From Blastocatellia bacterium (GTDB lineage Bacteria > Acidobacteriota > Blastocatellia > HR10 > J050), in NCBI GenBank assembly GCA_026985075.1, contig JALSQX010000048.1, forward strand, positions 1 through 43,217: a stretch of DNA of 43,217 nt, read 5' to 3'. Made by a program: the position numbers and the translations under genes. The notes under the pieces were generated by a model. That model was not told where the DNA came from. It saw nothing but the letters and a program-made list of their open reading frames with translations, and did no database searches. Every line of letters starts with the position of its first letter. The first letter of the stretch is position 1. Below, piece after piece: positions 22,721 through 39,400 of this stretch.

Positions 22721-22734
22721 ACCTCGTTACCTTG

Positions 22735-22962
22735 AGCGAAAATCGTCGAAGTCCGGTTCACACCGGCCACACGCTAAACCGGAGATAGGTTCGCGCACGA
22801 GGATCTTTCGTGGCCACATGTGCTCGGGACGCTCCTGGCGCACGGACTCTCGGTCTGCCAATGTGGTGCATCGTAGACGAGAAACCTCAGCTTGTCCAGC
22901 ACCTCCTGGTCGCCGTGCCACCACTTTAGTAGCCATTGCCTGGACTCTCCAGGTGAAGGCAT
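22735..22962 (-). pseudogene. decayed ECF sigma factor (copy A)
   Basis: Just upstream of the kinase, a frame opening MPSPGE...LLKWWHGDQEVLDKLRFLVYD matches the first 30 residues of the intact sigma gene at 24713-25279 (MPSPGEITELLLEWRHGNQAALERLMPLVYD). A frameshift follows, after which VRQERPEHMWP...ILVREPISGL parallels MRQERPGHTLQPTALVHEAYLRLV. The remaining two thirds of the gene are absent, and the kinase begins directly. It is therefore a truncated, frameshifted remnant. Confidence 0.85.
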
Positions 22963-23534
22963 GAGGAACCTCCCGATTGACACTGACTCGCTCAGTGGGA
23001 ATTGTATCGATAGAGTCGGCATGCCGTCAATAAAAAACTGATCTCAGGGGAACCGTCGGGTGGAGCGTGGATTACCATTTCCAAAGCTCGGTTGCGGCAG
23101 AGGAAGGTTCGTCAGCCCTACCAGCGAGGGTTCGTTGATGCTTGGCGTCTAGCCTCCGAGGACGGACCTGAACCCATCCACCGACGGCCATCGACGGGTT
23201 CCATGCAAAGCTGATCGGACTCTTTGGAGATTGGACGTGCAAGCACCGCCGGTGGATTGGACACTCGGTGAGTGACCGATCTTACGGAACAGCACCCCTG
23301 GGCGCGGAGGCAGCCCTCTCAAGGGAGTATATGCGCCCGGTCACCCGAGCCTTCTTTACAACGTATGAGGGCCATGTTATTCTCTCTGTATAAGGGAAGG
23401 CGCTTGAGATGACGGCTTGAAGGTCAAAAACATCGACGTTCTGACCCTGTACATGACGTCGGATGTGAACGCTATAATAGGTGAAGCCCGTCGGGTGAGT
23501 TCACGACATGCTGCTGTCTGCAGTGGAGGATAAA
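22963..23534. other. intergenic region between sigma remnant and toxin-antitoxin pair
   Basis: About 570 bp without a recognisable gene. It contains the promoter of the DUF433 gene near its right end. No convincing mobile-element ends were found, although a junction of this kind could be where the toxin-antitoxin pair entered. Confidence 0.5.
23473..23504 (+). promoter_or_regulatory. promoter and possible operator of the toxin-antitoxin pair
   Basis: A perfect TATAAT at 23473-23478 gives a predicted start near 23485, about 50 bp before the antitoxin ATG. No good -35 box is seen, so activation or an extended element may be needed. GTGA-GT-TCAC (23495-23504) in the leader and two GTGAA words flanking the -10 are candidate sites for autoregulation by the antitoxin. 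Confidence 0.45.
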
Positions 23535-23762
23535 ATGCCGGGGAATTGGAGAGAACATATCGTCAGCACGCCGGAGGTGCTTCGGGGGAAACCGCGCATC
23601 AAAGGCACGAGAATTCCTGTGAGCCTGATTCTCGGCTATCTGGCGGCGGATTATACGGTAGAGGATATTATTCGGGAGTTTCCGGATCTCACCAAGGAAC
23701 AGATCGGGGCCTGTTTGGATTATGCCCGCGAACTCGCCGAATTTGAGGTGGTGGCTTTGTGA
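23535..23762 (+). CDS. DUF433 antitoxin (VapB45-like)
   Basis: A 75-residue protein with the DUF433 core STPEVLRGKPRIKGTRIPVSLILGYLAADYTVEDIIREFPDLT (split here by domain: beta hairpin, then helix-turn-helix). DUF433 proteins pair with PIN-like partners and bind DNA as antitoxins. GGAGG at 23525-23529 sits five bases before ATG 23535; an upstream in-frame ATG at 23508 is less well supported. It overlaps the next gene by GTGA. Confidence 0.88.
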   Translation: MPGNWREHIVSTPEVLRGKPRIKGTRIPVSLILGYLAADYTVEDIIREFPDLTKEQIGACLDYARELAEFEVVAL

Positions 23763-24127
23763 ATCTGAGATTCTTTGCCGACCACTGTATCCCCAATAGT
23801 ATCATTGCATCGCTGCGAGAAGCAGGCCACGAAGTGCTTCGACTCAGAGACCATCTGCCAACCGATGCAGAGGATTCATTGGTGATCTCAAAAGCCCAGG
23901 AACTCGATGCGATTCTGCTCTCGTTGAACGGAGATTTTGCCGATATCGTGATGTATCCGCCAGCTCGTTACAAAGGGATCATCGCTCTCCAGGTGAAAAA
24001 CCACCCGGAAATTCTCCCTCAGTTGGTCATACGATTGAAAAATTACCTCTCAGCTCATCCGGATATGAATCATTACCACGGGAAATTGTTCACAGTGAGC
24101 GTCCATCGGATTAGAGTTCGCGGGTAG
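23759..24127 (+). CDS. DUF5615 PIN-like toxin (VapC45-like)
   Basis: A 122-residue protein starting at GTG 23759, overlapping the DUF433 stop. It has FADHCIP at residues 5-11 (first acidic metal ligand), DAEDSLVISKAQELDAILLSLNGDF with further acidic residues, and a C-terminal strand rich in basic residues. This is the PIN-like fold of MtVapC45-type RNases, which cut RNA with a divalent metal. The gene order, antitoxin first with a 4-bp overlap, is standard. It lies within the decayed kinase region. Whether it is active has not been tested. Confidence 0.85.
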   Translation: MNLRFFADHCIPNSIIASLREAGHEVLRLRDHLPTDAEDSLVISKAQELDAILLSLNGDFADIVMYPPARYKGIIALQVKNHPEILPQLVIRLKNYLSAHPDMNHYHGKLFTVSVHRIRVRG

Positions 24128-24636
24128 CTGACCCGACATCCGTGACCGGTGAGACATCTCTTCGAAGCGAGACCAGACCACCTTTCGTGACCGGCTTCAT
24201 TATCAGTAACAGAACGCGAGACCGGACTGCTCGCTCGGGCTTCTGCCAGAGGGCGACGATGGCCGGTAGCGCTTCGCGGGTGCGCTCGTGGTGCTCACCC
24301 AGATGAGCCTTCAATCCAGCATATCCCTTCAGCAGAAGACGTTCCGTCTCACCGAAGCGCTCTCATCTCACCGGACATGCCCCCAACACGCTCCCACTGC
24401 TGGCGATCAGCCAGTGATGGGCAGGAGGGGTTTCCCGGCGTAGTTCCAAAACTCTCTCGCCGAACTTGTGCCGCCGGCATCGGATCGCCTTGCTCGGCCA
24501 AGCTCCTTCCCAACACCTGTAACGTGCTGGCCGTGACCAGAAAGGCGGCCCGCTCCCGGGGCGGCCGCTCCAGAGCCGTCTCAAACAGAGCCTCGATGCG
24601 GTGCCACCGCTCCGGCGTCATCCGTCCCCGATTCAT
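24128..24636 (-). pseudogene. collapsed serine/threonine kinase-TPR gene (copy B)
   Basis: The 5' end encodes MNRGRMTPERWHRIEAL and FETALERPPRERAAFL, 95 of 99 bases identical to the intact kinase gene. It then jumps directly to TPR sequence (VTASTLQVLGRSLAEQGDP, compare RSLVVLGRILTSKGEP of the intact copy), shifts frame, and continues as RFGETERLLLKGYAGL ... VALWQKPERA, compare RYAEAEPLLVHSYDEI ... DAWQKPERA. The whole kinase domain, membrane helix and most TPRs, some 750 codons, are missing. The toxin-antitoxin pair abuts its 3' end. Confidence 0.88.
24538..24636 (-). repeat. 99-bp repeat, copy B (5' end of collapsed kinase)
   Basis: Second copy of the 22622-22720 repeat, same orientation, 1916 bp away. 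After its left end (24538) similarity to the kinase N-terminal domain stops abruptly. Confidence 0.9.
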
Positions 24637-24712
24637 AGTCCACCCCCTCAGAGAGGTCTTCTGGTGGAGTCGAGCGCTTCCTGCTTCGGACCGGCCAACT
24701 CCTCCTCACCAC

Positions 24713-25279
24713 TTACGCGTCTCCCTTCAATTGGCCGTAGAGCCAGGCGCGGGCCAATCGCCAATGGCGGCTGACCGTGGCCGGGGAGAGGCCGAGCACC
24801 TCGGCCGTCTCTCTGATGCTCAATCCTCCGAAGAAACGCAATTCCACGATCTGACTCTTCCGGGGATCGAAGGCGGCCAGATGAGTCAAGGCGCGATCCA
24901 GGGTGATCAAATCCACCGTGCGCTCGCCCAAGGGTGACGCCAGATTGTCCAGTGTCAGCAAAAAGCCCACCCTCGCTCGCTTAGCTGCTCGGCGACGGCG
25001 GGCATGATCCACCAGGATGTGTCGCATGGCCTGAGCGGCGGCAGCGAAGAAATGAGCGCGGTTTTGCCACGACGGCGACTCGGTGCCCACCAGCCGGAGA
25101 TAGGCTTCGTGCACCAACGCCGTCGGTTGGAGTGTGTGACCGGGGCGCTCTTGACGCATGTAGAGTTCGGCCAATCGATGAAGTTCGTCATACACTAAAG
25201 GCATCAGCCGCTCCAGTGCCGCCTGGTTGCCATGACGCCACTCCAGGAGCAATTCAGTAATCTCTCCGGGCGAGGGCAT
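24713..25279 (-). CDS. ECF RNA polymerase sigma factor (acidobacterial/planctomycete type)
   Basis: A 188-residue sigma factor. Region 2 is at about 10-85 (ALERLMPLVYDELHRLAELYM, QPTALVHEAYLRLV, ...AMRHILVDHARRRRA) and region 4 at about 128-182, with the HTH LSIRETAEVLGLSPATVSRHWRLARAWL. This family is encoded next to serine/threonine kinases instead of anti-sigma factors, and phosphorylation is believed to control it. Its own adjoining kinase (24128-24636) is a pseudogene, so the intact kinase at 20066-22720 may be its functional partner. GGGAGG lies 12 bp before ATG 25279, with a nearer AGGA. Confidence 0.93.
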   Translation of the reverse strand: MPSPGEITELLLEWRHGNQAALERLMPLVYDELHRLAELYMRQERPGHTLQPTALVHEAYLRLVGTESPSWQNRAHFFAAAAQAMRHILVDHARRRRAAKRARVGFLLTLDNLASPLGERTVDLITLDRALTHLAAFDPRKSQIVELRFFGGLSIRETAEVLGLSPATVSRHWRLARAWLYGQLKGDA

Positions 25280-25520
25280 GGGTCCTGGTTACCTCCCTGA
25301 TCGCCGAATAACTCACCACCATTATATTCCCACAAAGAAAGCGCGGTCAATTAAATTTTAGGTCGTCCATATCCCACTCCTGAATGACCCGCAGATGCTC
25401 ACCCCCCAAGGCGAGATCTGCTCCAGATCCTCCTCTCCTCCGTCTGCGGTGATCGTGGCATTTCTGTGTTCGTCCACATGTTATTCCCGAGTGACCCGCA
25501 GGTGTTCGCAGCGAGAGGTT

Positions 25521-25705
25521 CGAAGAAAAATGCATTTTGCGTGATGCACTTTCCTATCATTTTGCGCTTTTAAGGAGTAGAGAAAAAAAACAAACCAAGG
25601 AATGGGGTGGGTCACCAACGAAAATGAAGAAACTCGGTCTTCGGACGAGGGCGGACCCGCCCCACCCCCTGAAGGGAACTCGCTCTCGGGGAGAGCGGCT
25701 GGAGT
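25521..25705 (+). promoter_or_regulatory. structured leader element, copy 1 (before metalloprotease)
   Basis: First of four related leaders. It starts with an A-rich run, then a GATGCACTTT block and the core ATTTTGCGC (25559-25567). Downstream the arms GGGGTGGGTC (25604-25613) and GACCC..CCACCCC (25654-25668) form a long stem. Inside are a small hairpin and CGAGGGC (25646-25652). The tail CCTGAA (25668-25673) follows, then a perfect hairpin CGCTCTC-GGG-GAGAGCG (25681-25697). The upstream 240 bp to the sigma gene hold only a short direct repeat (GACCCGCAG at about 25388 and 25496). This is the most diverged copy. Confidence 0.65.
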
Positions 25706-25721
25706 CCCTTCCTCGGGGTGA

Positions 25722-25808
25722 ATGGACAAGATTGTGGAGAAGATGAATGAGTGGGAGGGCTGGAACCGCTACCGAGCCATTCCGCTCCGGGAGCTGGACC
25801 GCTGGTGA
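25722..25808 (+). CDS. possible 28-residue small protein in the leader
   Basis: ATG 25722 follows GGGGTGA and opens a 28-codon frame ending TGA at 25806-25808. The peptide begins MDKIVEKMNEWEGW, contains four Trp in all, and has charged and aromatic residues in a coding-like mix. There is no homology I recognise. It lies between the leader stem and the metalloprotease start. It may be a leader peptide or chance. Confidence 0.3.
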   Translation: MDKIVEKMNEWEGWNRYRAIPLRELDRW

Positions 25809-25842
25809 GTCATGAAAGAAAGGGCCACTCCTTGATGACTCA
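25806..25842 (+). repeat. 8-bp inverted repeat before the metalloprotease
   Basis: TGAGTCAT (25806-25813) and ATGACTCA (25835-25842) are perfect inverted copies around 21 bp. The first arm overlaps the stop codon of the small frame at 25722. It could be a transcriptional operator or mRNA hairpin. Confidence 0.4.
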
Positions 25843-25880
25843 TCCATGAGCGCCGGTCAATGAGAGGAAGGAGGTGAGCA

Positions 25881-25973
25881 ATGAGCAGTGAAGAGAGCGT
25901 GAGGTGTGGGAGGGGCGCTCGACTCCTGAGGTCATCGGGGGGCGGCGCAGGCGAAGATGGAATCTGGTCGTGA
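25881..25973 (+). other. 30-codon frame with ideal ribosome site: leader ORF or frameshifted 5' end
   Basis: GGAAGGAGGTGAGCA immediately precedes ATG 25881, the same layout as the starts of the next genes. This frame closes at TGA 25971, which overlaps an ATG of the metalloprotease frame (TGATG). One extra base in the G6 run at 25937-25942 would join it to the downstream frame and give a basic n-region (RRRRW) ahead of the hydrophobic core. It is either a translationally coupled leader peptide or the true, frameshifted start of the protease. Confidence 0.6.
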
Positions 25974-27784
25974 TGGGTCTCCTGCTTCTTCCCGGGTGCC
26001 TGGTCTCTCTGCCATCGGGGGAGGCGGGGGGTGTTCTCTCAGCAAGGGCGCCGGAGTTGATCTCCCGCTTCTCTGCCGGGGGAGCGCGGGCCGAGCTCTT
26101 GTCGCCCTCGGTGGCGCGCGGGCGGGGTGGGTTTGTGCAGTACGTGGATGAGGGGAATCTCATCTGTCGTCGGGCAACCCGGGAAGAGAGGCTCTCCATG
26201 AGACGACGCACTCTAATGCTCCCTCTGCGGGTCATTTCCCCCGTTCATCTCACCCAACAGCCGGATGGGCTGAACATCATGTTGCGCGGCACGTCGCAGC
26301 TTGAGAGCTTCCCCGAAGCCCAGGCCGCCTTTTTAAGGGCTGCCGCCAGGTGGGAAGCGCTGATTCACACGCCCATCACCATCGTGATCGACGTTGATTT
26401 TGGGCCCACCCGCTTCGGTGAGCCATTCGATGAGGGTGTGTTGGGATCGACGATCGGGCAGCCCCTCCTCCTTCGTTCCGGATACCCGGATATCCGCTCT
26501 CGTTTGATTGAGGGAGCATCCAATGCGCAAGAAGCGTCGCTTTACCCGCTGCTGCCGATTGGTGCCGTTCCCACCGATCTTGGCGACACGGCCGATGTGT
26601 TTGCTCCTTCCGCTGTGTTCCGCGCGCTCGGTCTTATCGATCCCGTGGCCGATCCCGATGGGGAGCGAGGCCGATTTGGCGATCCACCCAACATCGGATT
26701 CAACGCCAACTTCCAATTCGACTTCAATCCCGCCGATGGGATCGATCGTGAGGCGTTCGATTTTGAGACCGTGGCCGCGCATGAGATCGGTCATGTACTG
26801 GGGTTCATATCCAATGTGGGCGAGCAAGAGTTGAGTCCTTCGGCGCGCCTTTCTCTCACCACGTGGGATCTATTTCGGTTTCGTCCGGACACGACGCGGG
26901 GAACGTTCCCTGCGGCTCAACGAATTTTGTCTTCGGGGGGTGATCAGGTGTTTTTCGCCGGGGGCCCCGAGCTGCCGCTCTCCACGGGGCGACCAGATGG
27001 CTCTGGCGGGGATGGGCGTCAGGCCAGTCACTGGAAGGATGACGATCTCACGGGACAGTACATCGGCATCATGGACCCTACCATACCGCCTGGTGTGCGT
27101 CAGGAGATCACTGACAATGATCTGTTAGCCCTCAACTTCATGGGCCACAGGATCGAAGCCCCGGCGGTGCAGCGCGGCGATGTGAATCAGGATGGGGTGG
27201 TCAACGTGCAGGATGTGATTCGTCTGATTCAACATCTGACGGGCGAGCGCCCGCTCACCGGGGCGGGGTTGGAGGCGGCCGATGTGAATCGGGATGGGGT
27301 GGTCAACGTGCAGGATGTGATCCTGCTCATCCAGATGCTGACCGGCCAGCAATCCACAAGGTTCACCATCGTCGCCCGGCGGGCGCTGGCTCGCGGGATT
27401 GCTCTTGGTGAGGGAGAGCAAACACGCACGGGGATGAGCGTGCCGATCGTCATCGACGATGGCTCGGGCATCGCTGCTGCTCAGGTGGTGATCGCCTATG
27501 ATCCCGTGAACCTCCAACTGGCCGGCCCGCCGGTCGTCACCAGAGGCGAGCTCGTCCCCGGAGACGTCGAGCTTCATGTGAACGCCGGTGAACCGGGGCG
27601 GATCGTCGTGGTATTGGCGCCGCCGGTCAGGTCGCCGGTGCCCATGCTGCGGAGAGGTCCGGGCACTCTGTTGTGGATGCACTTCAGGCCTGTGGGAGAA
27701 GCTGGCGCGGCGAGCGTGCGCCTTGTACAGGCAGTGTTCGCGGACGGGGCCGGACATCATATTCCGGCGCTCCATGAGCATTAA
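25904..27784 (+). CDS. secreted zinc metalloprotease-like protein with dockerin and cohesin-like domains
   Basis: A 626-codon frame from GTG 25904; the real start may be ATG 25881 (frameshift) or ATG 25973. A hydrophobic segment LVVMGLLLLPGCLVSL (a possible lipobox) directs export. The N-terminal half holds a metalloprotease domain with HEIGHVLGF at about 293-301, a zincin motif whose third ligand would lie downstream. Residues 425-482 are a type I dockerin with two calcium loops, GDVNQDGVVNVQDV and ADVNRDGVVNVQDV. Residues 490-620 resemble a cohesin-type beta-sandwich (VPIVIDDGSGIAAAQVVIAYDP). It may be a cell-surface or secreted protease that binds partners by dockerin-cohesin pairing. It is the first of four tandem exported proteins. 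Confidence 0.85.
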   Translation: MWEGRSTPEVIGGRRRRRWNLVVMGLLLLPGCLVSLPSGEAGGVLSARAPELISRFSAGGARAELLSPSVARGRGGFVQYVDEGNLICRRATREERLSMRRRTLMLPLRVISPVHLTQQPDGLNIMLRGTSQLESFPEAQAAFLRAAARWEALIHTPITIVIDVDFGPTRFGEPFDEGVLGSTIGQPLLLRSGYPDIRSRLIEGASNAQEASLYPLLPIGAVPTDLGDTADVFAPSAVFRALGLIDPVADPDGERGRFGDPPNIGFNANFQFDFNPADGIDREAFDFETVAAHEIGHVLGFISNVGEQELSPSARLSLTTWDLFRFRPDTTRGTFPAAQRILSSGGDQVFFAGGPELPLSTGRPDGSGGDGRQASHWKDDDLTGQYIGIMDPTIPPGVRQEITDNDLLALNFMGHRIEAPAVQRGDVNQDGVVNVQDVIRLIQHLTGERPLTGAGLEAADVNRDGVVNVQDVILLIQMLTGQQSTRFTIVARRALARGIALGEGEQTRTGMSVPIVIDDGSGIAAAQVVIAYDPVNLQLAGPPVVTRGELVPGDVELHVNAGEPGRIVVVLAPPVRSPVPMLRRGPGTLLWMHFRPVGEAGAASVRLVQAVFADGAGHHIPALHEH

Positions 27785-27944
27785 AGGCTGGCGCTCATGG
27801 GTTGCCTCCCACTGACGACTCCTCCGCGGTCGGGACTCGCTCATGGCGCGGGCTGCGGGGGGTCGGCTGGGTCACCGAGGGTGACATATGAGCGAGATGC
27901 TGAACGGTAGTAGTAAGAGGGCAGCCTCTTTCCCATGTGCTCTG

Positions 27945-27989
27945 CTTCGTCGGGGGAACGTTAATGGAGTAGAGGTTCTCCCGACGAAG
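27945..27989. repeat. 15-bp inverted repeat after the metalloprotease
   Basis: CTTCGTCGGGGGAAC (27945-27959) pairs with GTTCTCCCGACGAAG (27975-27989), one pair being G-U, around a 15-nt loop. It lies about 160 bp after the protease stop and 15 bp before the second leader. It lacks a T-run on either side. It could be a terminator, a boundary or part of the leader. Confidence 0.55.
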
Positions 27990-28003
27990 TTGGCGAAGAC
28001 ATC

Positions 28004-28190
28004 CCGAAAAAATTTATCTCGCATGACGCATTGTGTGGCGATTTTGCGCTATAGAGGATGAAGGAGAAGAATGTGGAGCGGGAGATCCGAGAGGGCGCGG
28101 GCTGACGTTGAATTCCTCCTCTGGGCGAGAGTGCGTCGTCCCGATCTCCTGAAACAATTGAGTCTCTCCTCTGGGGAGAGGCCTGGGTCC
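28004..28190 (+). promoter_or_regulatory. structured leader element, copy 2 (before RHS protein)
   Basis: It begins CCGAAAAAA, then GCATGACGCATTGTGTG and the core GCGATTTTGCGCTATAGAG (ATTTTGCGC at 28041-28049). The stem is GGAGATC (28081-28087) with GATCTCC (28143-28149). The inner segment reads GGGCGAGAGTGC, aligned with CGAGGGC of the other copies, and the tail is CCTGAAACA. A second hairpin, CTCTCC/GGAGAG, is at 28164-28180, as in copy 1. The stem sequence differs from the other copies, but pairing is preserved. Confidence 0.72.
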
Positions 28191-28263
28191 ATTTGCCGGG
28201 GCGGATGATTCGGAAATGGCCAGAGTGGAGTATGACAACCTGTACGGTGATTTCGCGCCATAT

Positions 28264-28285
28264 ATTTTGCCCAAAGGGCCAAAAT
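28264..28285 (+). repeat. small palindrome beside the RHS ribosome site
   Basis: ATTTTGCCC-AAA-GGGCCAAAAT forms a hairpin with one bulged C and sits just before GAGGAGGTGAGG and the ATG at 28307. Part of it (GATTTTxCCCAA..GGGCAAAATC) recurs in the larger palindrome at 33964-34004. Confidence 0.5.
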
Positions 28286-28306
28286 CGCCAAAAGAGGAGG
28301 TGAGGA

Positions 28307-31300
28307 ATGAGAAAACTCATCATGGCATTGCTCATGACCGCGTTTCTGGCCCCTTTGTCTGGGGTAAGAGGACCAACCACCGTCGTTTCTCAGGCTGGCT
28401 GCGTGGCGCCGCCAGCAGGGATGATCAGTTGGTGGGATGCCGATGAAGTCATAGGGACGACCGTCGTTGATATTCAAGACGGAAATGATGGGACAATGGT
28501 AGGCAACGTGACGATTGTTCCCGGTATCGTCGGCGATGCGTTCAACTTTGATGGGGATGCCTCTATCCAGGTGCCGAACTCGGCGAACCTGGAGCCCTCG
28601 GAGGTCACCGTTGATGCCTGGGTGAGAAGCGATGGGCCCGGTTCTTTTGCCTACATCGTGTCCAAAGGAGCGGACAGTTGTCTTTTCTCCTCTTATGCCC
28701 TGTATACAGGCAGTAGTGGAGGGCTCTTTTTTTACATCTCCAACGGTTCTATATTTTTTCTCTCCCCTGATGCGGGGACAGGCGTTTGGGATGGGGCGTG
28801 GCATCACGTCGCGGGCACATTTGATGGGAGCACCGTCAGGTTATATGTGGACGGCGCAGAGGTTGGATCCGGAACCTCCGTGTCAGATTCAATTGCCTAT
28901 AATCTCCCCACTACGAATGATCTTTTCATCGGGGAGTATGCCGCATCTGGTAGCTGTTCTGTTGATGTTTCTTTCGTGGGCGACATTGACGAAGTGGAAA
29001 TCTTCGACCGCGCGCTCTCGGAGGCGGAAATCGCGGATATCTTCGCCGCTGGCAGCGCAGGTAAATGCAAAGATGGGACGCCTCCACCACCGCCACCACC
29101 ACCTCCCCCACCCCCGTCCGGCGTCAGTTGCACATTGGAGCCGGCCACAGCCACGAACCTGGTGGGCACGAGTCACACGGTGACCGTCACGGTGACCGCC
29201 GACGGGGAGCCACAACCGGGCGTCATCGTGTTCTTCACCATCACGGATGGGCCGAATGCCGGCATCACGACCGGCGCCATCACTGAACGCGATGGCCGAG
29301 CCAGCTTTTTCTACGTCAGTAATGGGATTGCGGGCACTGACACTATTGAGGCCAGTGGTACGGTGGGAGGGGAATCCTTCTCCTGTACAGCAATGAAGGA
29401 GTGGACTGAGAACACTTGCATCCTGCAGCCGGAGGCGGTGCGCGGTCCAGTAGGCATCGACCACACGGTCAGAGTCACCGTCTTCGTCAACAGGAAGCCG
29501 CAACCGGGCACACGGGTGAGGTTCAGAATTACGCGAGGACCGAATATTGGGCTGACAGATATGGCTCTCACCGATTTCTTTGGTCAGGCTTTCTTCACCT
29601 ATACGAGTGAGGAGGTGGGGACTGACGTCATCAAAGCTAGCGGCACGGCCAATGGCATGTCTTTCAGTTGCACAGCGATCAAGGAGTGGACAGAGGGTGG
29701 AATCATATCGGGGTTGAGGCCGTTGCCTGGACCCGTCTTTTCGGGCCCTGGCAACTTGGGCAACCCGTCCATCACCAGTGGAACCGCCGTTGGTTGTCCG
29801 GTGAACGTGAGCAGCGGGAATATGTTCCATCAGTTCGAGGATATGAACATTTCCAGTCGTGGATTTCCCATTCGGCTCGTGCGCACGTATAACAGTCGCT
29901 CGGCGATTGATGGTCCGTTCGGCTTCGGGTGGACGCACAGCTACAACATGTTTCTGGCAAAGGTTCGGCGCTCGGTCGTGTTCTTTAATGAGAGTGGCGG
30001 GCAATTTACGTTCACCAAACGGGGCCGAGGGTTTGTTGCTCCGCCCGGATTGAATATGACGCTGACCGGAGAGAGCCACGGGTTCACGTTGCGCAAGAAG
30101 GACGGCACTGAGTTGCGATTCGATGGGAATGGGAGATTGCAGAGCCTCACCGATCGCAATGGGAATGCGCAGACGTTGAGCTACGATGATCAAGGGAATC
30201 TCCAAACAATTACCGATGCGCTCGGGCGCCAGATCACCTTCACGTACGACGCGAAGAACAAGATCGTGGAGATCCGGGATTTCACCGGTCGGCGACTCAC
30301 GTATGATTACGACGATGAGGGCAATCTCATCGAGTCAGTCGATTTCGGCGGGAACAAAACGACGTACACGTACTACGGCAACTTCTTCAATGACCACAAT
30401 CTGAAGACGATCACTTTCCCGGAAGGGAACACGATCACGTACATCTATGACATGGATGACCGGGTGACCAAGGTGATCGGCCCCGGCGGGGGTGAGATGA
30501 AGTTCGAGTATGGGCCGTTTCGGAGGACGCGGGTCACTGATGAGCGCGGATTTGTCTGGACGTTCAAATACAACGGGAATGGGAACGTGACGCGGATCAT
30601 CAATCCGGAGGGGAATCTCATCGAGCAGGAGTGGGACGAGAATGCCAATTTGATGGCTCGGACGGATGAAGCGGGCTTCACGACCCGGTTCGAGTATGAC
30701 GAGCGGGGGAATTTGCTCAAGCGCACCGATCCACTTGGGAATACAGTCCAGTTCACGTACGAGCCAAGGTTTAATCGGGTCACGAGCCTCAGGGACAAGA
30801 ACGGCCACCTCACGCGGTTTGAGTATGACGCCAATGGTAATCCAATGAGGATTATTGATCCGCTCGGCGGAGAAATTACATTGACCTACGATAGTTTCGG
30901 CAATGTACTCACTGTCACCAACGAGGAAGGTCATATCTTCTCCACCACCTACGACCTGCTTGACAATCCTATAGAGATCCGAGACGCACTTGGGAATGTG
31001 GTGAGATTGAGGTTCGACGCACTCAGACGCCTCACAAACGTGATTAATCCGCTCAACAACGAACTGCGCCTGGAATACGACAGCCTGGATCGCATCACGA
31101 AAATCACAGATGAGTTGGGCAACGTCACCGCTTTCAACTACGATGGGAACAGTAATATAGTGCAATGGACGGATGGCAGTGGAAATGTGACACGCTTTGC
31201 CTATGACCAGCTGAATAATTTGACTCAGGTGACCGATGCATTGGGAAACGTGATCCAATACGGGTATGAAACTGAGGAATGTTTTTGTGTCTCCACGTCG

Positions 31301-33271
31301 AATGTAACTTCATTCATCAACGCGAGAGGTGAGACCTGGACGTACGCATACAATTTCCGAGACCAACTCATAGAGATTCGCGATCCCTTAGGCAACGTCA
31401 CTCACCTCGCTTACGACGCCCGTGGCAATCTGATCAAAAAGACCGATGCGAACGGGAACACAATTCGATTTGAGTATGACGAATTGAATCGTTTGGTCCG
31501 AAAGATTTTTCCCGACGGAACAGAAGAGACGTTCACATATGACGCCAACAGCAATCTGCTCACGGCGTCCAATCAACACATGACGCTCACGTTCACTTAT
31601 GACGAACGGAGTCGCATCACCAGTGTCACTGACTCACGCTTTCCCAAGAGAATTCGCTACACGTATGATCGCATTGGCAATCGTGTGACGATGACGGACC
31701 CTGACGGAGGAGTCACAAGATATAGCTATGATGGGAACCGTCAGATCGGAACAATTGTGGACCCTCGTGATCAGATCATCAGTTTCAATTATGACGCTTT
31801 GGGTCGCCGAATCGAGCTGAGTCTGCCCAATAATGTGGTCACCACTTATCGCTATGATGATGCCGGTCGACTTCTCAGCTTGGTGAATCAACTTGCTCGT
31901 AGTTCCAATCTGATCTCCAGCTTCTCCTACACTTATGATGGAATAGGGAACCGAATGAGCATGGCCCAACAGCGACCCAATGTCGCTGCAAGCCCTCAAC
32001 TCTCCTTCACATATGATAATCTCTACCGCTTAATAGAAGCCACCCGCCCGTTACCCCATCAGCCACTCGAGACCTTTCAGTACGATCCAGCGGGCAATCG
32101 CCTCCGCCGCGATGGGCAGGCGGCCGCCTCCGTCTTCGATGCTGCTAATCGACTTATTGAGGATGAGACCTTCACCTACACCTATGATGCCAATGGCAAT
32201 CTCATCAGCAAGACAAATAAGATCACAGGGGCCATCACAGCTTACCACTATGACTTTGAAAATCAGCTTGTCCGGGTTGACTTGCCCAATGGGGCCGTGG
32301 TGCGCTATCAGTATGATGCTCTTGGACGGCGCATCGAAAAGGATGTCAATGGTGAGATCACTCGCTATGTCTATGATGACGAAGACATCCTCTTGGAATT
32401 GGATGACGCGAATCGTCTCGTAGCTCGCTACACTCACGGCCTGGGCATCGACGAGCCACTGATGATGGAGCGCGATTTGAATGGCAACGGGACGTTCGAA
32501 GCCGATGAGCGATTCTTCTATCACACTGATGGCCTCGGCAGCATCACGGAATTGACTGACTCAACCGGTATCGTGCAGCAGAGCTATGTCTATGACTCAT
32601 TTGGGAATATTGTGGCGGTGACCTGTGAGGGCGAAACCTTCACCGGCACGAAGGTGGTGCAGACTGCGCTCGCCGATCCCTCCGTCTGTCTGCCGAACCC
32701 ATACACGTACACGGCGCGCGAATTTGATGCCGAGAGTGGTCTGTACTACTACAGAGCGAGGTACTATGACGCAAGCGTGGGGAGATTCCTCTCTGAAGAT
32801 CCCATCCTGTTTGCGGATTTCGGGCTGGAGGTCGTGTTGAAGTTGATGTCCAGGAGATTGATCTCGCGGAATCTGACTCGCTTCCTGTTTGCAGGTGACC
32901 AAACGCACCTTTATGTGTATGTGAACAATAACCCTTTAACGTTTGTCGATCCAACCGGGTTGCAGGCAGACAACGAATCGAACGGCTTCTTGGAGTGGGT
33001 TAAAACTATGTTTAGTATTGGCTCTCGAGCTCCGGTCCCGGGACCTATAAAAGGAGGAGCGGGGGCAACCGAGGGCATGGTGGAAATTCAAAAGAGCGGT
33101 ATATCAGGTGATAGATATTATCTGAAGCTTCTGCTTTACGACCAAGAAATGGCTGATAAGTTTTTCAGGGATGTAGGTCCAAACGCTAATATTGCGGAAA
33201 CCTTGCAATGGATTCAAGATCACCGGGAAATTCTTAAAGAACGGGGGATCCCGGTTTGTAGGATAAAATAG
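28307..33271 (+). CDS. LamG-Ig-RHS/YD repeat surface protein with variable C-terminus
   Basis: A 1654-residue exported protein. Signal peptide at 1-31; LamG/concanavalin-like jelly roll at about 35-250; a run of prolines at about 257-268; two Ig-like (Big-type) domains at about 270-465, each opening C-x-L-x-P and closing with SFSCTA; a DUF6531-like entry domain (VNVSSGNMFHQFEDM, about 497); dozens of YD repeats (typically GN-x(n)-YDxxGNL) at about 600-1440; RHS core RYYDASVGRFLSEDPI; and DPTGL at about 1557. The last 95 or so residues (from ADNESNGFLEW) are a unique tip of the kind that in RHS polymorphic toxins is the effector. No nuclease or other motif is recognisable in it, and no immunity-like gene follows. 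GAGGAGGTGAGGA precedes the ATG. Confidence 0.92.
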   Translation: MRKLIMALLMTAFLAPLSGVRGPTTVVSQAGCVAPPAGMISWWDADEVIGTTVVDIQDGNDGTMVGNVTIVPGIVGDAFNFDGDASIQVPNSANLEPSEVTVDAWVRSDGPGSFAYIVSKGADSCLFSSYALYTGSSGGLFFYISNGSIFFLSPDAGTGVWDGAWHHVAGTFDGSTVRLYVDGAEVGSGTSVSDSIAYNLPTTNDLFIGEYAASGSCSVDVSFVGDIDEVEIFDRALSEAEIADIFAAGSAGKCKDGTPPPPPPPPPPPPSGVSCTLEPATATNLVGTSHTVTVTVTADGEPQPGVIVFFTITDGPNAGITTGAITERDGRASFFYVSNGIAGTDTIEASGTVGGESFSCTAMKEWTENTCILQPEAVRGPVGIDHTVRVTVFVNRKPQPGTRVRFRITRGPNIGLTDMALTDFFGQAFFTYTSEEVGTDVIKASGTANGMSFSCTAIKEWTEGGIISGLRPLPGPVFSGPGNLGNPSITSGTAVGCPVNVSSGNMFHQFEDMNISSRGFPIRLVRTYNSRSAIDGPFGFGWTHSYNMFLAKVRRSVVFFNESGGQFTFTKRGRGFVAPPGLNMTLTGESHGFTLRKKDGTELRFDGNGRLQSLTDRNGNAQTLSYDDQGNLQTITDALGRQITFTYDAKNKIVEIRDFTGRRLTYDYDDEGNLIESVDFGGNKTTYTYYGNFFNDHNLKTITFPEGNTITYIYDMDDRVTKVIGPGGGEMKFEYGPFRRTRVTDERGFVWTFKYNGNGNVTRIINPEGNLIEQEWDENANLMARTDEAGFTTRFEYDERGNLLKRTDPLGNTVQFTYEPRFNRVTSLRDKNGHLTRFEYDANGNPMRIIDPLGGEITLTYDSFGNVLTVTNEEGHIFSTTYDLLDNPIEIRDALGNVVRLRFDALRRLTNVINPLNNELRLEYDSLDRITKITDELGNVTAFNYDGNSNIVQWTDGSGNVTRFAYDQLNNLTQVTDALGNVIQYGYETEECFCVSTSNVTSFINARGETWTYAYNFRDQLIEIRDPLGNVTHLAYDARGNLIKKTDANGNTIRFEYDELNRLVRKIFPDGTEETFTYDANSNLLTASNQHMTLTFTYDERSRITSVTDSRFPKRIRYTYDRIGNRVTMTDPDGGVTRYSYDGNRQIGTIVDPRDQIISFNYDALGRRIELSLPNNVVTTYRYDDAGRLLSLVNQLARSSNLISSFSYTYDGIGNRMSMAQQRPNVAASPQLSFTYDNLYRLIEATRPLPHQPLETFQYDPAGNRLRRDGQAAASVFDAANRLIEDETFTYTYDANGNLISKTNKITGAITAYHYDFENQLVRVDLPNGAVVRYQYDALGRRIEKDVNGEITRYVYDDEDILLELDDANRLVARYTHGLGIDEPLMMERDLNGNGTFEADERFFYHTDGLGSITELTDSTGIVQQSYVYDSFGNIVAVTCEGETFTGTKVVQTALADPSVCLPNPYTYTAREFDAESGLYYYRARYYDASVGRFLSEDPILFADFGLEVVLKLMSRRLISRNLTRFLFAGDQTHLYVYVNNNPLTFVDPTGLQADNESNGFLEWVKTMFSIGSRAPVPGPIKGGAGATEGMVEIQKSGISGDRYYLKLLLYDQEMADKFFRDVGPNANIAETLQWIQDHREILKERGIPVCRIK

Positions 33272-33312
33272 CCAAGTAGGGCAACTGGCTTGGGTAAGGC
33301 CCGGCTGGTGGA

Positions 33313-33684
33313 GTGACATTTGAGCGGACAGTGACTGATCCATGCGAGGCGACTGGCACAGACACAGCCGATGTCAATATCAATGATGTGCTGGGGCTCG
33401 AAGACGAGAGTAACGATCACCGTCTGCGACTCTTCCCTTGCAGTGGGCGCTACATCTGGCAGAAGCCCGATGGGACCGAAGTGACGCACTTTGCCACGAT
33501 CACGGTGGTGAGTGGGGTAGCCATCCAGTTTGCGAATGTGCCGAGCGATCTGAACCTGCTGAAGGGAAGGATTTTGCTGTCGCGGCGGCTGGACAATGCG
33601 CGGCTGACGGAGCCGAGAGGGCATTGTGGGCGAACCTCCACGATCGTTGATGCGGACATGGATGACAACGGGCCGTGCCCGTAG
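33313..33684 (+). pseudogene. fragment resembling the C-terminus of an exported protein
   Basis: A GTG-started frame of 123 codons opens with VTDPCEATGTDTADVNIND, the style of beta-sandwich surface proteins, and continues with an unfamiliar domain containing GRYIWQKPDGTEVTHFATITVVSG and Cys pairs, ending DADMDDNGPCP. It lacks a signal peptide. It directly follows the RHS gene, where an immunity gene would sit, but it looks more like the remnant of a larger surface protein. An expressed small protein cannot be excluded. Confidence 0.4.
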
Positions 33685-33830
33685 ATCAGCACTGGAGGAC
33701 CGGACTGGCTCCGGCCCGTCCGAGCCTGAGTGGGTGTTCGGCACCGATCCAGGCTGTTCCGGCTCTTTGGCGTAGGGCGCGTGCCTGCGGACATGCGCCT
33801 CGCCCTGGTCACGGATCTTTCAGTCTGGAG

Positions 33831-33860
33831 CTTGGCGAATTTCCGGCGAAATTCGCCAAG
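33831..33860. repeat. 13-bp perfect palindrome after the RHS region
   Basis: CTTGGCGAATTTC (33831-33843) and GAAATTCGCCAAG (33848-33860) are perfect complements with a 4-nt loop. No T-tract follows. It may be a terminator for the RHS transcript or a REP-like element. Confidence 0.6.
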
Positions 33861-33963
33861 TTCACACGCTCGAGCCCAAAAGAATTCCGCGAGACTCACT
33901 TTATTTCTCCTGTTCCATGAATGTGGCCATTTCCTTGAGGATTTGGCCAAGCGCGGGTTCATT

Positions 33964-34004
33964 ACTGTGGCGATTTTTACCCAAGGGGCAAAAATCACCA
34001 CAGT
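33964..34004. repeat. long imperfect palindrome before leader copy 3
   Basis: Arms ACTGTGG, GATTTTT and CCC pair with GGG, AAAAATC and CCACAGT, with two single mismatches and an AAG loop. Its TGTGGCGATTTT word is repeated 15 bp later as part of leader copy 3, suggesting that the leader core and this palindrome share an origin. Confidence 0.6.
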
Positions 34005-34010
34005 TAAGCC

Positions 34011-34140
34011 TGACACACTTTGTGGCGATTTTGCGCTAGAGAGAGTGAAAGGGAAAAATGTGGCTCGGGAGGTCAGGGTCGCCGGCAGACAGAGAAGGCC
34101 TGATCTTCGGGCGAGGGCATGACTCCTGGCCTCCCGAACA
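34011..34140 (+). promoter_or_regulatory. structured leader element, copy 3 (before beta-propeller)
   Basis: The core TGTGGCGATTTTGCGCTAG has ATTTTGCGC at 34028-34036, then AGAGAGTGAAAGGG. The stem is CGGGAGGTCAGG (34066-34077) with CCTGGCCTCCCG (34125-34136), twelve pairs with one G-U. Inside is a small hairpin ending TTCGGGC and the conserved CGAGGGC (34112-34118). The tail is CCCGAACAA. The A-rich 5' block of the other copies is replaced by the palindrome at 33964-34004. Confidence 0.72.
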
Positions 34141-34224
34141 ATGTGCAGTGTTATGTGAATGCCCGTTTGGTGGATGCCGTTGTGTACTCGCCAAATGGCC
34201 AGAGGAAAAGGAGGTGACAGGAGT

Positions 34225-36276
34225 ATGTCATTGAGAGCTATGCCAAGCACGGTTCTGACCTTATTCGTGATTCTGAATTCGAGCGTCCACCTGCTCGACG
34301 CGGCGCCGCCGGTACCGGGCCCGAGTCAGCAGCCGAACGTGTGGGAGCAAACCAGTGGGCCGATTGCTCCATTAGTTCGTGCATTGCTGGTCAACAATGT
34401 GGGCCATCTGTTTGCTGGGACGGCCGGCGGCGTCTTCCGTTCCACGGATGGCGGCGACACCTGGCGGGCAACCAATGTTGGCTTGACCCGGTTGGGTGTC
34501 TCGGCCCTGGCAGTCACCGGCGGGAACGATCTGTTTGCGGGGACCTTCGGAGGTGGCGTGTTTCGCTCCCGAGATGACGGCGAGTCGTGGACCGCCGTCA
34601 ACACGGGCCTGACAAATCTGAATGTCCGGGCCCTGGTGGTTAATGTCGCGGGGGATCTGTTTGTGGGAACCTCGGGCGGCGGCATCTTCCGCTCGCGGGA
34701 TAACGGCGAGTCGTGGACCGCCGTCAACAGGGGATTGAGCAATCTGACCATTCTGGCCCTGGCGGTCAATGCCCGGGGGGATCTGTTTGCGGGGACCTTC
34801 GGAGGTGGCGTGTTTCGCTCCCGAGATGACGGCAGCTTGTGGACGGCTATCAACAGGGGGTTGAGTAATTTGAACGTCCTGACCCTGACGGTTACCGGCG
34901 CGGGCCATCTGTTTGCCGGGACGGTGGGTGGCGGCGTCTTCCGTTCCACGAACAATGGGAGACGGTGGCGACCAGTCAATACCGGCTTGAGTAACCTCAG
35001 CATTCAGGCGCTGTTTGTTACCAGCGTCGGCCATCTGTTTGCCGGCACGGTGGGCGGCATCTTCCGCTCGACGAACAATGGCGACCGATGGGAGGCAGTG
35101 AATGCGGGCTTGACGGTGTTGGTGGTGGCGGCCCTGGCGGCCAATGCCATGGGTGATCTGTTTGCCGGCACGGTGGGCGGCGGGGTGTTTCGCTCTCACG
35201 ATAATGGTGACTCGTGGACCGCCGCGAATACTGACCTGCGGTCCTCCAATGTGGGAGTTCTGGCCGTCAGCCGCACGGGTGATGTATGGGCCGGGACCGC
35301 CGGTGGCGGCCTCTTCCGTTCCTCGGATCGAGGGGACACCTGGATCAACCGAGGCTTGGCCAATCTCTTCATCTTAGCATTAGTGGAAGATGCGGCAGGA
35401 GTTCTGTTTGCTGGGACTAATGACGGCGTGTTTCGCTCCACCGATCAGGGCGAGAGTTGGATGGCCATCAACACGGGGCTGACCAATCTTGTGATTCGGG
35501 CCTTAGCAGCGAATGCGGCAGGTGATCTGTTTGTTGGAACGCAGAGCGGTGGGGTGTTTCGCTCGCAGGATGAGGGGGATTCCTGGACGGCCATCAATAC
35601 GGGCCTGACGAATTTGAACGTCTTCACGCTGGCCATCAGTAGTGCTGGCGATCTGTTTGCCGGGACGTTTGGCGGTGGGGTGTTTCGCTCTCGCGATGGG
35701 GGTGAGACCTGGACGGCCATCAACATGGGCCTGACCAGTCTTCAAGTAAACACAATAGTGGCCCGGGCGGCCGGGGACGTGTTTGCCGCCACGTTTAGCG
35801 GCGGGGTGTTTCGCTCACAGGATGGCGGCGATTCCTGGACGGCCGTCAATCAGGGGCTCACCAATCTCAATCTCCGTGCGCTCATTGCGACCTCCAGCGG
35901 CGATCTGTTTGTGGGGACCTCGGGCGGCGGCGTGTTTCACTCTGCAGATGATGGGAACACCTGGACAGCGATCAATAGCGGACTGACGAATTTGGCCGTC
36001 TCCGCATTGACGGCCAATGCCGCGGGCGATCTGTTTGGGGGCACGGCCGGCAGTGGCGTCTTCCGTCGCCGTGCAGAGCGACAAGAGGTGAGACGCTCTG
36101 CGATTTCCACCCCTCGCGCTCCCCGAGCCCCAGCCAAGCATACCGGTTTGGCGATGCATGAGCGTCGAGCAGGAGTGAAGAGCCTGGCTCAACATGTTCC
36201 ACGGTTCATCTTTGGGGCCGAAAAAAGTTCATCTTGGATGAGGCACTGTTTGTCGATTTTGCGCTATAGAGAGTGA
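34225..36276 (+). CDS. exported beta-propeller protein with 14 BNR/Ycf48-like repeats
   Basis: A 683-residue protein. Signal peptide MSLRAMPSTVLTLFVILNSS... to about 26, then fourteen repeats of about 42 residues with consensus ALxxNxxGDLFAGTxGGGVFRSxDxGxSWTAxNxGLTNL, enough for two seven-bladed propellers. The fourteenth repeat breaks off after GVFR, and the last 70 residues are Arg/Pro-rich with no repeat pattern. The final 20 are encoded by DNA belonging to leader copy 4, so the natural end appears to be lost. AAGGAGGTGA lies seven bases before ATG 34225. The upstream in-frame ATG 34159 would precede the signal. No catalytic motif is seen; a binding role at the surface is likely. Confidence 0.88.
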   Translation: MSLRAMPSTVLTLFVILNSSVHLLDAAPPVPGPSQQPNVWEQTSGPIAPLVRALLVNNVGHLFAGTAGGVFRSTDGGDTWRATNVGLTRLGVSALAVTGGNDLFAGTFGGGVFRSRDDGESWTAVNTGLTNLNVRALVVNVAGDLFVGTSGGGIFRSRDNGESWTAVNRGLSNLTILALAVNARGDLFAGTFGGGVFRSRDDGSLWTAINRGLSNLNVLTLTVTGAGHLFAGTVGGGVFRSTNNGRRWRPVNTGLSNLSIQALFVTSVGHLFAGTVGGIFRSTNNGDRWEAVNAGLTVLVVAALAANAMGDLFAGTVGGGVFRSHDNGDSWTAANTDLRSSNVGVLAVSRTGDVWAGTAGGGLFRSSDRGDTWINRGLANLFILALVEDAAGVLFAGTNDGVFRSTDQGESWMAINTGLTNLVIRALAANAAGDLFVGTQSGGVFRSQDEGDSWTAINTGLTNLNVFTLAISSAGDLFAGTFGGGVFRSRDGGETWTAINMGLTSLQVNTIVARAAGDVFAATFSGGVFRSQDGGDSWTAVNQGLTNLNLRALIATSSGDLFVGTSGGGVFHSADDGNTWTAINSGLTNLAVSALTANAAGDLFGGTAGSGVFRRRAERQEVRRSAISTPRAPRAPAKHTGLAMHERRAGVKSLAQHVPRFIFGAEKSSSWMRHCLSILRYRE

Positions 36277-36400
36277 AGGGAGCATTGGCTCGGGAGGTTG
36301 GGGAGGGTCGCGGGCGAACAGGAGCCCGGTCATCGGGCGAGGGCGCGACCCCCGACCTCCTGAAATGAGCGAACCGGCTCTTGGGGAGGTGACGGGAAGC
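36218..36400 (+). promoter_or_regulatory. structured leader element, copy 4 (before giant surface protein)
   Basis: CCGAAAAAAG, then ATGAGGCACTGTTTGTC and the core CGATTTTGCGCTATAGAG (ATTTTGCGC at 36256-36264) and AGTGAAGGG. The strongest stem of the four has GGAGGTTGGGG (36293-36303) pairing with CCCCGACCTCC (36350-36360), continued by GTCGCG/CGCGAC (36307-36312, 36344-36349). Inside are GCCCG-GTCAT-CGGGC (36324-36338) and CGAGGGC (36338-36344). The tail is CCTGAAATGA. It overlaps the last codons of the propeller gene. Confidence 0.72.
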
Positions 36401-36430: not shown

Positions 36431-39400
36431 ATGAACAGATTCTCCATATTCGGTCTGGTCATGACGGGGGTGGTGAGTCTGGCTTTGGCGATGTTGGCCT
36501 GGCCCTCATCGCCGGCGGGGGCCACCAGTGAGATGAGGCGCGTGGGTCCTGACAGCGTCTTTGCGCTTGATGTGATGGAGGAAGTCTCGGCGGGGCGGTT
36601 GTCCGCGTCCGGGGTGGTGCGGGCGGCCGGGCGCGGTGCGCCGTGGATCAATCTGCAGGATGGTCGGGAGTTGTCGACCGAGTATGTGGGAGCCGCCGGG
36701 CTGGTACAGGTGCTGCGGCGAGGGGTGGTCGAGCCGCGGGCGCTTGTGGCGGCCGATTTTGACGAGGATGGGATGCCGGATCTGATGAGCGGGTATGTGG
36801 GGCCTGCCGGTGGGATTCTGACGGAGCATCGAGGCAATGTGGCCTCGATTTTTCCCTATGCGCTTCGGACGATGGGCGATGGGCGACCGACGGCAGGCGG
36901 TGGGCGGCGGGCGAGGGGCGATGGGCCCTTTTTGCCCGAGGCGCGGGTGGTTGAGGTACCGGAGGTGCCGGACTTTGTGGGGGCGGGAGATTTTGATGCC
37001 GATGGGCATCAGGATGTGGTGGTGGCGGCGCGGGGCGGCGATCGGCTCATCTGGCTGCCGGGGGATGGGCGTGGTGGGTTTGGTGAGGCTCGGTCGGTGG
37101 AGTTGCCGGGTGGGGTCACAGCTCTGATCACGGGAGAGATCAACCGGCGGGACGGATTGACCGATGTGGTGGTTGGCGTGGTGGGGCCACATGGTCCGCA
37201 GGTGGTGGTGTTTGAGGGGCCCGGTGGGGCGCTGAATGGTGCCAGTCTGGTTGCTGGTAGGGCGGAGACCCACAGAGAGACGCCCGTACAGCCCGAGATC
37301 CTCCCGCTGCCTGATGAAGCCACGGCCTTGGCGCTGGGTCAGTTGGATGAGCATTATTGCATGGATCTGGCCGTGGCCGCGGGCAGCGAACTGCTCATCA
37401 TTCACGGGCGGGATCGGCGGTTGTCAACCGGGGGTCGGAACGTGGCACCCGCCGTCATCGATCAACGATCGTTCCCATTCCAGATCACCTCGCTGGTGAT
37501 GGGTGATTTCACGCCGAATCGGACGAAAGAGCTGGCCTTGCTGTCGGTGGAAGGAGGGATGTATGTGTTGGAGGTGGCCCGCGGGCTGAGGGATGAGGAA
37601 CAGCAGCAGGAGATCGATCTGGCGCGGCGGCGCGAGCGGTTGTACCGGCGGATGTATCAGGAGGAACGCCGACGGCATCGGGCGCTGATGGCGGGAGACC
37701 GAATCGCTCTCAGGGAAATGGAGCAAATCATACATCGAGAAGCTCGTCGATTGGATCTTGGCCAGGAAGCATTCGGCCATCTGGAGGAGCCGAGGAGCAT
37801 CCCCTTGCGCCAGTGGACGCTACGGGAGGTTGCGGCGCTGGGAGCCGCGACTCTTGTCTCGCCTGGCAGTGGCCGGGAGTTGATACGGGTGCGGATTTCT
37901 AGTCGGCCGACCGACGATCTGGTGGTCATCGATCCGGCCAATCGCCAGCTCCACATTCTGATTGCGGGCGATGGGCGATGGATGATGGACGATGGACGCT
38001 GGACGCTGGTGTCGCTCGATGTATTGAGCGCCCCGGTAGCTGTCTTGCCTATGCGGCTGAATCGGGATGCACTCAGCGATCTGGTGATGTTGCGGGAAGG
38101 AGAAGAGACGCCCTCGGTGGCGTTGACGGCGGCGATGGCGACGTTTGTGGTGGATTCGACGGCAGATGATGCGGATTTTGACACGACCGATGGAGTATGT
38201 GACACGAATGATAGTGTAGGCGATGGGCCCTGCACGTTGCGAGCGGCGATCCAGCAGGCCAATGCCAGCGCGGGGATGGATACGATCGAGTTCGCCATTC
38301 CCGGGGCGGGGCCGCATACGATTCAGCCCGGGTCGGCGCTGCCCAACATCACCGATCCGGTGGTGATTGATGGCTACACGCAGCCGGGGGCGAGTGCGAA
38401 CACGAATCCGGTGGGGATGGGGTTGAACACGGTGTTGCAGATCGAGCTGGATGGGAGCATGGCCGGGACCTCGAATGGACTGACCATTGCGGCCGGGAGC
38501 AGCGTCGTACGAGGATTGGTGATCAACCGCTTCAATCCTGATCCTGCTTTTCCTGGAGGGATTCGTTTAAAGACGAACGGGAACATCATCGAGGGGAATT
38601 TCGTCGGCACCGATGTGACGGGGACTGTGGCGTTAGAGAACGAGCCCCTTGATGTGGCTACGAGGAATTTGACGGGGAGCAACACCATAGGTGGGACAGT
38701 GGAAGCAGCGCGCAACCTCATCATCGACTTGGGTCTTTTTGGTGCTGGAGATATTGTGCAAGGCAATTTTATTGGCACTGACGTCTCAGGCATGGTTGAC
38801 TTAGGTGGCGCTGTCGAAGGTAGTTTCAGTACCATCGGGGGCACCGTGGTCGGGGCGCGCAATGTCATCGCCGATGTTGCCTTATCATCGGGTGCCCAGA
38901 ACAATCTGATCCAGGGCAATTTCATCGGCACCGACGTGACGGGTACTGCCGGCTTGGGCAGTAGTGGTACAGGGCGTGGGGGCATAACCATACAATTCGG
39001 AGCGCTTGATAACACGATCGGTGGAACGACGCCTGCGGCACGCAATGTCATAAGGCGAGGAATCCATGCTGGTCCCACCTTTTTCTTTGGGCAAGGAGCG
39101 ATTAACAACCTGATCCAGGGCAATTTCATCGGCATGGGCGTAACGGATGCTCCTCTGGATAATGACCTAGGTGGTATAACCCTCACAGGTGATTTTCATA
39201 GAGATAATACAATCGGCGGAACGGTGGCAGGGGCAGGCAACGTCATTGCGTTTAATGGAGGAGTTGGTGTGGGTAGTTTTTTTAGTATACGCACTGCTGT
39301 TCTCTCTAATTCCATCTTTTCCAACGGAGGTCTAGGGATTGACCTTGGATCTATTGGGGTAACGCCAAACGATCCAGGCGATGCTGATGCGGGCGCCAAT

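Follow-up and report, generated by a model that had tools for sequence, protein, structure and literature searches.

The four surface-protein genes in the stretch of Blastocatellia DNA analysed here (43,217 nucleotides, referred to as the window) probably share one promoter type that is read by the kinase-linked ECF sigma factor encoded next to them. As an explanation of the whole, we favour a regulon in which each promoter of this sigma factor is followed by a hairpin leader, and we hold this reading to be moderately likely. The computed support consists of a promoter that is tied to this class of sigma factors, a hairpin on the sense strand and compensatory stem arms. The features of the window are as follows.

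20066-22720, minus strand: Ser/Thr protein kinase of 884 aa, kinase domain and TPR repeats (Pfam Pkinase 5.5e-49, TPR_12 6e-53)
24713-25279, minus strand: ECF sigma factor of 188 aa, QPTA in place of acidic DAED (TIGR02999, Pfam Sigma70_ECF)
25321-25350, minus strand: sigma-70-like promoter of the sigma gene, TTGACC-18-TATAAT (11/12 match, consensus only)
25541-25577, plus strand: copy 1, predicted ECF promoter (core pattern, weight matrix)
25595-25674, plus strand: copy 1, leader hairpin with arms 25603-25613 and 25654-25664 (z -2.8)
25904-27784, plus strand: exported metalloprotease with dockerin (NF038122 4.6e-59, Dockerin_1 3e-14)
28023-28059, plus strand: copy 2, predicted ECF promoter (core pattern)
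28078-28154, plus strand: copy 2, leader hairpin with arms 28079-28087 and 28143-28151 (alignment, hairpin model)
28307-33271, plus strand: exported RHS-repeat protein with LamG and Ig-like domains (RHS_repeat 2e-129, Laminin_G_3 9e-30)
34010-34046, plus strand: copy 3, predicted ECF promoter (core pattern)
34065-34139, plus strand: copy 3, leader hairpin (z -2.4)
34225-36276, plus strand: exported BNR/sortilin-like propeller protein (Sortilin-Vps10 2.8e-29)
36238-36274, plus strand: copy 4, predicted ECF promoter (core pattern)
36290-36365, plus strand: copy 4, leader hairpin (z -2.8)
36431-43217, plus strand: large exported protein with FG-GAP, P-domain, Ig-like and HYR domains, running past the contig end

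Copies of the element and their distribution

An element of about 130 nt occurs in four collinear copies, all on the plus strand and each 5' of an exported-protein gene. This arrangement had been noticed in a sequence-only reading of the window and proved to be real, with limits that we refined to 25541-25674, 28023-28153, 34010-34139 and 36238-36365 for copies 1 to 4. The leaders had been placed 150-350 bp before the genes; the upstream position holds, and the distance from element start to gene measures about 190-360 bp. Each copy consists of a 5' core of 37 bp (TGANGCACT...ATTTTGCGCTATAGAG) joined to a 3' hairpin of about 75 nt, in the order core with ATTTTGCGC, outer stem, inner CGAGGGC and tail CCTGAA, the inner segment being CGAGAGT in copy 2 and the tail CCCGAA in copy 3.

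A 33-base core pattern, allowing up to three mismatches, matched the 5.2-Mb genome six times (four times in the window and once each on contigs C44 and C33) and the sister species once; the same-family genome G002 had no match, and the reversed pattern gave none. A covariance model trained on the four window copies, which themselves score 109-135 bits, detected a fifth full copy in the sister species that had stayed outside model building (99.7 bits, E 2e-20), and gave weaker scores of 30.5 and 26.4 bits to degenerate copies on C44 and C33. Counting the latter, the genome holds six copies and not four, and their occurrence is not due to chance. The covariance-model search of Acidobacteriota proposed in the sequence-only reading thus yielded one further full copy within the genus and none beyond it: full copies are confined to one genus, of which two genomes were examined, and outside this genus no homologue turned up in 10 genomes of the order, in 147 from the class or in 396 from the phylum, the last set having been searched with stricter filters. 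G002 is without a recognisable element despite carrying a sigma/kinase pair with 59% identity. In agreement with the earlier statement that the leader belongs to no known riboswitch class, Rfam gave no relevant match at gathering thresholds or at E values up to 5, the sole subthreshold match being gyrA at another location (E 2), and a search for tRNA and tmRNA returned none.

The core as a promoter

The 5' core is very likely a promoter rather than an RNA aptamer. The -35 element would be TGANGCACT and the -10 element would lie at about TTGCGCTATA, for recognition by the adjacent kinase-linked ECF sigma factor. The view of the core as the heart of a structured RNA, as first proposed, gives way in our reading to that of a DNA site: the motif recurs at other sigma loci without the hairpin and behaves as a promoter. 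For 79 related sigma genes from other genomes, mainly of Acidobacteriota and Planctomycetota, we scanned the 400 upstream bases with a weight matrix built from seven cores. Divergent-strand sites scoring above 8 were present at 6 of the 79 loci, with a best score of 25.4, compared with none of 79 for the reversed matrix and none on the strand of the sigma gene. The -35/-10 motif shared by the target genes therefore recurs at loci of related sigma genes, in the form of a TGANCC-like sequence, a spacer and a TTTGCGC(G/T)(T/A)TA-like sequence, and these sites, divergent to TIGR02999-type sigma genes, come without the window hairpin. The promoter consensus is only partial, since most of the 79 loci have no clear site. 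Both species also carry a paralogous sigma/kinase locus with a distinct form of the promoter, ATGAGCCATTCCC...CGATTTGCGCGTTATG, which in the three genomes searched is confined to the paralogous loci and one contig end.

A reading of the core as a sigma-54 or sigma-70 promoter was rejected by eye on account of unfit spacing, and no sigma-70-like sites were found before the four genes. If taken as DNA that is read by the sigma factor, the core explains the coordination of the genes, and the promoter alone can explain how they are switched on together. The suggestion of a cis-regulatory RNA coordinating surface proteins is thus upheld with regard to the structured leader and the coordination, while the part of coordinator passes from the RNA to the sigma factor.

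The adjacent sigma factor and kinase

The ECF sigma gene (TIGR02999, 222 bits with a cutoff of 126; Pfam Sigma70_ECF PF07638, 1.1e-54) lies directly 5' of copy 1, from which it diverges, and is preceded by a near-perfect sigma-70 site of its own (25350-25321, minus strand), a consensus match only. Beyond it, in the same neighbourhood, follows the gene for a Ser/Thr kinase with TPR, separated from the sigma gene by about 2 kb of rearranged DNA. On contig C245 of the sister species, a sigma gene with 90% identity and the gene for a kinase of 887 aa (L012 4321-6984) adjoin the single full element copy, again in divergent orientation, so that sigma and kinase genes adjoin the element in both genus genomes examined.

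In kinase-linked ECF43 factors, the DAED motif is replaced by uncharged residues and phosphorylation of a Thr activates the protein (PMC8999054, PMC8103513, PMC13147305). The sigma factor of the window resembles this type, as judged from its domain, the adjacent kinase and the motif QPTA at residues 51-54, which includes T53, is invariant in four homologues and was placed by eye against the published description. As in EcfP/PknT of Vibrio parahaemolyticus and EcfK/PknS of Xanthomonas citri, the sigma gene stands beside a Ser/Thr kinase gene and the DAED counterpart is uncharged with Thr (QPTA here, STTA in EcfP, QATE in EcfK). Unlike EcfP and EcfK, it is a TIGR02999/PF07638 member from Acidobacteriota, and its predicted targets are large surface proteins instead of polymyxin resistance or type VI secretion. 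The cited papers do not describe leaders with a hairpin for ECF43-type systems.

The DNA at 22612-24637 is what rearrangement has left of a second sigma/kinase pair, with unrelated DNA in between. It comprises two copies, 93.6% identical, of a 109-bp segment from the start of the kinase gene (about 22612-22720 and 24528-24636) and a degenerate sigma N-terminus at 22846-22962. An ORF of 122 aa at 23759-24127, between the sigma and kinase genes, encodes a putative DUF5615/PIN-like protein.

Target genes

All core matches in the genome stand 5' of genes with an exported appearance, as judged from domains and, by eye, from signal-peptide-like starts. The genes downstream of the four window copies belong to unrelated families; behind the C44 copy lies a gene for a reprolysin-like protease and behind the C33 copy one for a protein without Pfam match. 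In the sister species, no separate leader precedes the BNR gene, whose transcription may start at the element further upstream.

Several further observations were made around these genes. At 36238-36276, the copy 4 promoter overlaps the last codons and the stop of the preceding BNR gene. Within the copy 1 leader, 116 nt at 25715-25829 are 78% identical to an internal part of the gene that follows the C33 copy and encodes its exported protein, as if a gene behind this promoter had been deleted or replaced. At 25881, a strong ribosome-binding site and an ATG open a frame of about 30 codons (25881-25973) that overlaps the GTG start of the metalloprotease (25904), which reflects either translational coupling or a wrong start call. 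A C-terminal tail, DDNGPCP-stop, is encoded at four places in this genome (G000), namely at 33658-33684 of the window and at C33:161824-161850, C44:44909-44935 and C80:115176-115202; three of the four tails lie near elements of this study and none was found in four related genomes searched. It is possibly a sorting tail of exported proteins. Moreover, inverted repeats around TGGCGATTTTT...AAAAATCACCA (33965-33999 and 28243-28291) adjoin copies 3 and 2 and contain the promoter spacer sequence TGGCGATTTT.

The leader hairpin

In the full copies, a long stem contains an internal loop and is capped by a short apical hairpin, with TGAA or CGAA following it, and we regard a functional RNA hairpin as likely. 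When stem arms were exchanged between copies, the true assignment ranked 1 of 720 by pairing energy, with mean duplex energies of -24.2 kcal/mol for own and -16.9 kcal/mol for foreign arms. This is a stronger test than alignment covariation. In the alignment of the four copies, 96% of the outer helix is paired, with several G-U changes and two double-sided pair changes; 72 of 500 shuffles reach as many double changes, and the shuffle-controlled covariation is not yet significant. The covariation put forward in the sequence-only reading is real, as the compensatory arms show, but modest, given the small number and close similarity of the copies. The outer arms given there were confirmed for copies 2-4, whereas GGGGTGG/CCACCCC in copy 1 competes with a longer register, TGGGGTGGGTC/GACCCGCCCCA. 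Compared with shuffled sequences, z-scores were -2.4 to -3.3 for copies 1, 3, 4 and 5, and near zero for copies 2 and 6 as whole leaders, the stretch tested for copy 6 being incomplete. Furthermore, the sense strand folds better than the antisense strand in 7 of 8 hairpins (summed energies of -281 versus -244 kcal/mol), which favours an RNA over a DNA palindrome.

A hairpin-only model made without copy 1 recovered this copy at 20.6 bits, and in the 147 class genomes the hairpin was seen only 3' of this promoter, with the exception of one partial 33-base match (E 0.03). The C44 copy has kept the promoter and carries a different stem, GGTGGGGAGG/CCTCCCCACC, copy 7 is without a matching hairpin, and at the paralogous loci another hairpin, GAGGAAGGCCAATGGGCCGATCCTC and GAGGACGGTCAATTGGCCGATCCTC, directly follows the promoter 5' of an exported gene. 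Within the genus, promoters of this sigma class are therefore repeatedly followed by a 5'-end hairpin, whose sequence differs; it is absent after most candidate promoters in other genera.

Two further readings of the leader were rejected. A terminator or attenuator is contradicted by the TGAA or CGAA after the stems, with no U-run, and by the lack of a predicted terminator in the four leaders. An upstream reading frame starting from the GTG or ATG after the -10 element was dismissed by eye despite its seeming conservation (VKGKN..REV); it is interrupted at differing points, copy 1 has GTA, which is not a start, and the differences in the paralogue leaders are non-synonymous.

Proposed mechanism and alternative explanations

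In the regulon that we propose, the Ser/Thr kinase would sense a signal and phosphorylate the sigma factor at T53 of QPTA, the position of the acidic residues in ordinary ECF factors. The activated sigma factor would then transcribe a small exported-protein regulon from six promoters in the genome, and a long, GC-rich hairpin would begin about 15-35 nt into each transcript, counted from the presumed start site. In every hairpin the 5' arm is rich in purines and the 3' arm is rich in pyrimidines and includes a CCTCC-like stretch, and the 5' arm (GGGAGG type) would lock the 3' arm (CCTCC type) within the mRNA. Most likely, the hairpin would thereby shield the 5' end of the long mRNAs from decay and keep CCTCC off the gene's own GGAGG ribosome-binding site, although we put forward this stabilising or insulating role tentatively, as a possibility that falls short of probable. 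The 3' arms could pair with their own ribosome-binding sites at -9 to -18 kcal/mol, and a protective or insulating hairpin is favoured over a switch because the hairpin is the stronger of the two structures in every copy except copy 2. In whole-leader folds, the ribosome-binding site is neither consistently free nor consistently masked.

The 5' untranslated regions of the ompA type carry a stabilising stem near the 5' end of surface-protein mRNAs, without a terminator. The leaders described here are similar in having a stable stem near the mRNA 5' end of surface-protein genes and no terminator, but their hairpin is longer, has an internal loop and a conserved inner strand, and is bound to the promoters of one sigma factor. 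Translational riboswitches of the anti-SD type classically present a 5' arm, an anti-SD-like 3' arm and a downstream SD, and the same order is found here; in contrast to them, the leaders show no aptamer conservation past one genus, no Rfam match and no convincing alternative fold.

The last comparison bears on the possibility that the element is a new cis-regulatory RNA, either a riboswitch or a protein-binding leader, in which a ligand or protein would be bound by the internal loop together with the conserved GGGCGAGGGC strand, and the CCTCC of the 3' arm would pair with the downstream GGAGG in the off state. The conservation of the inner CGAGGGC across copies and the capacity of every 3' arm to pair with its own ribosome-binding site are in line with this explanation, which we nevertheless consider unlikely: the alternative pairing is less stable than that of the hairpin arms except in copy 2, the downstream genes have no metabolic theme in common, and the restriction to one genus and the Rfam result also speak against it. 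A riboswitch in particular is not supported: the analysis revealed neither a ligand nor a switch or terminator, and the full hairpin occurs in one genus, unlike typical classes.

Alternatively, the hairpin could be a by-product of gene duplication, in which promoter and leader were copied together and the stem was inherited or serves as a regulator-bound DNA palindrome. Column by column, copies 2-4 agree to about 80% on average, which points to similarity that is partly due to recent descent, and rearrangement is evident in the region. Yet the diverged arms still pair, sense folding exceeds antisense folding and the downstream genes are of unrelated families, so that we judge this origin to be improbable. 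A dispersed repeat or mobile element such as REP or MITE, which several similar copies might suggest, is highly improbable, as orientation and position relative to the genes are constant in all copies rather than random, there are no inverted copies and none elsewhere, the hairpin-only model found no convincing promoter-free copy in 147 genomes, and by eye neither terminal repeats nor target duplications were seen.

Overall, we see the system as a probable regulon of a kinase-linked ECF sigma factor with genus-specific hairpin leaders. The kinase-linked TIGR02999 sigma group is common in Acidobacteriota and Planctomycetota, and the cited papers report no regulon for it; our results provide a concrete, testable target set and a promoter motif for such factors. 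An undescribed cis-regulatory RNA that is obligatorily tied to the promoters of one sigma factor, as a common RNA tag for a regulator or ligand, is a rather remote prospect; if true, it would mean a sigma regulon with a second, RNA-level control common to its members. The joint occurrence of promoter and hairpin leader before unrelated surface proteins would combine transcriptional control with control by RNA in an uncommon way.
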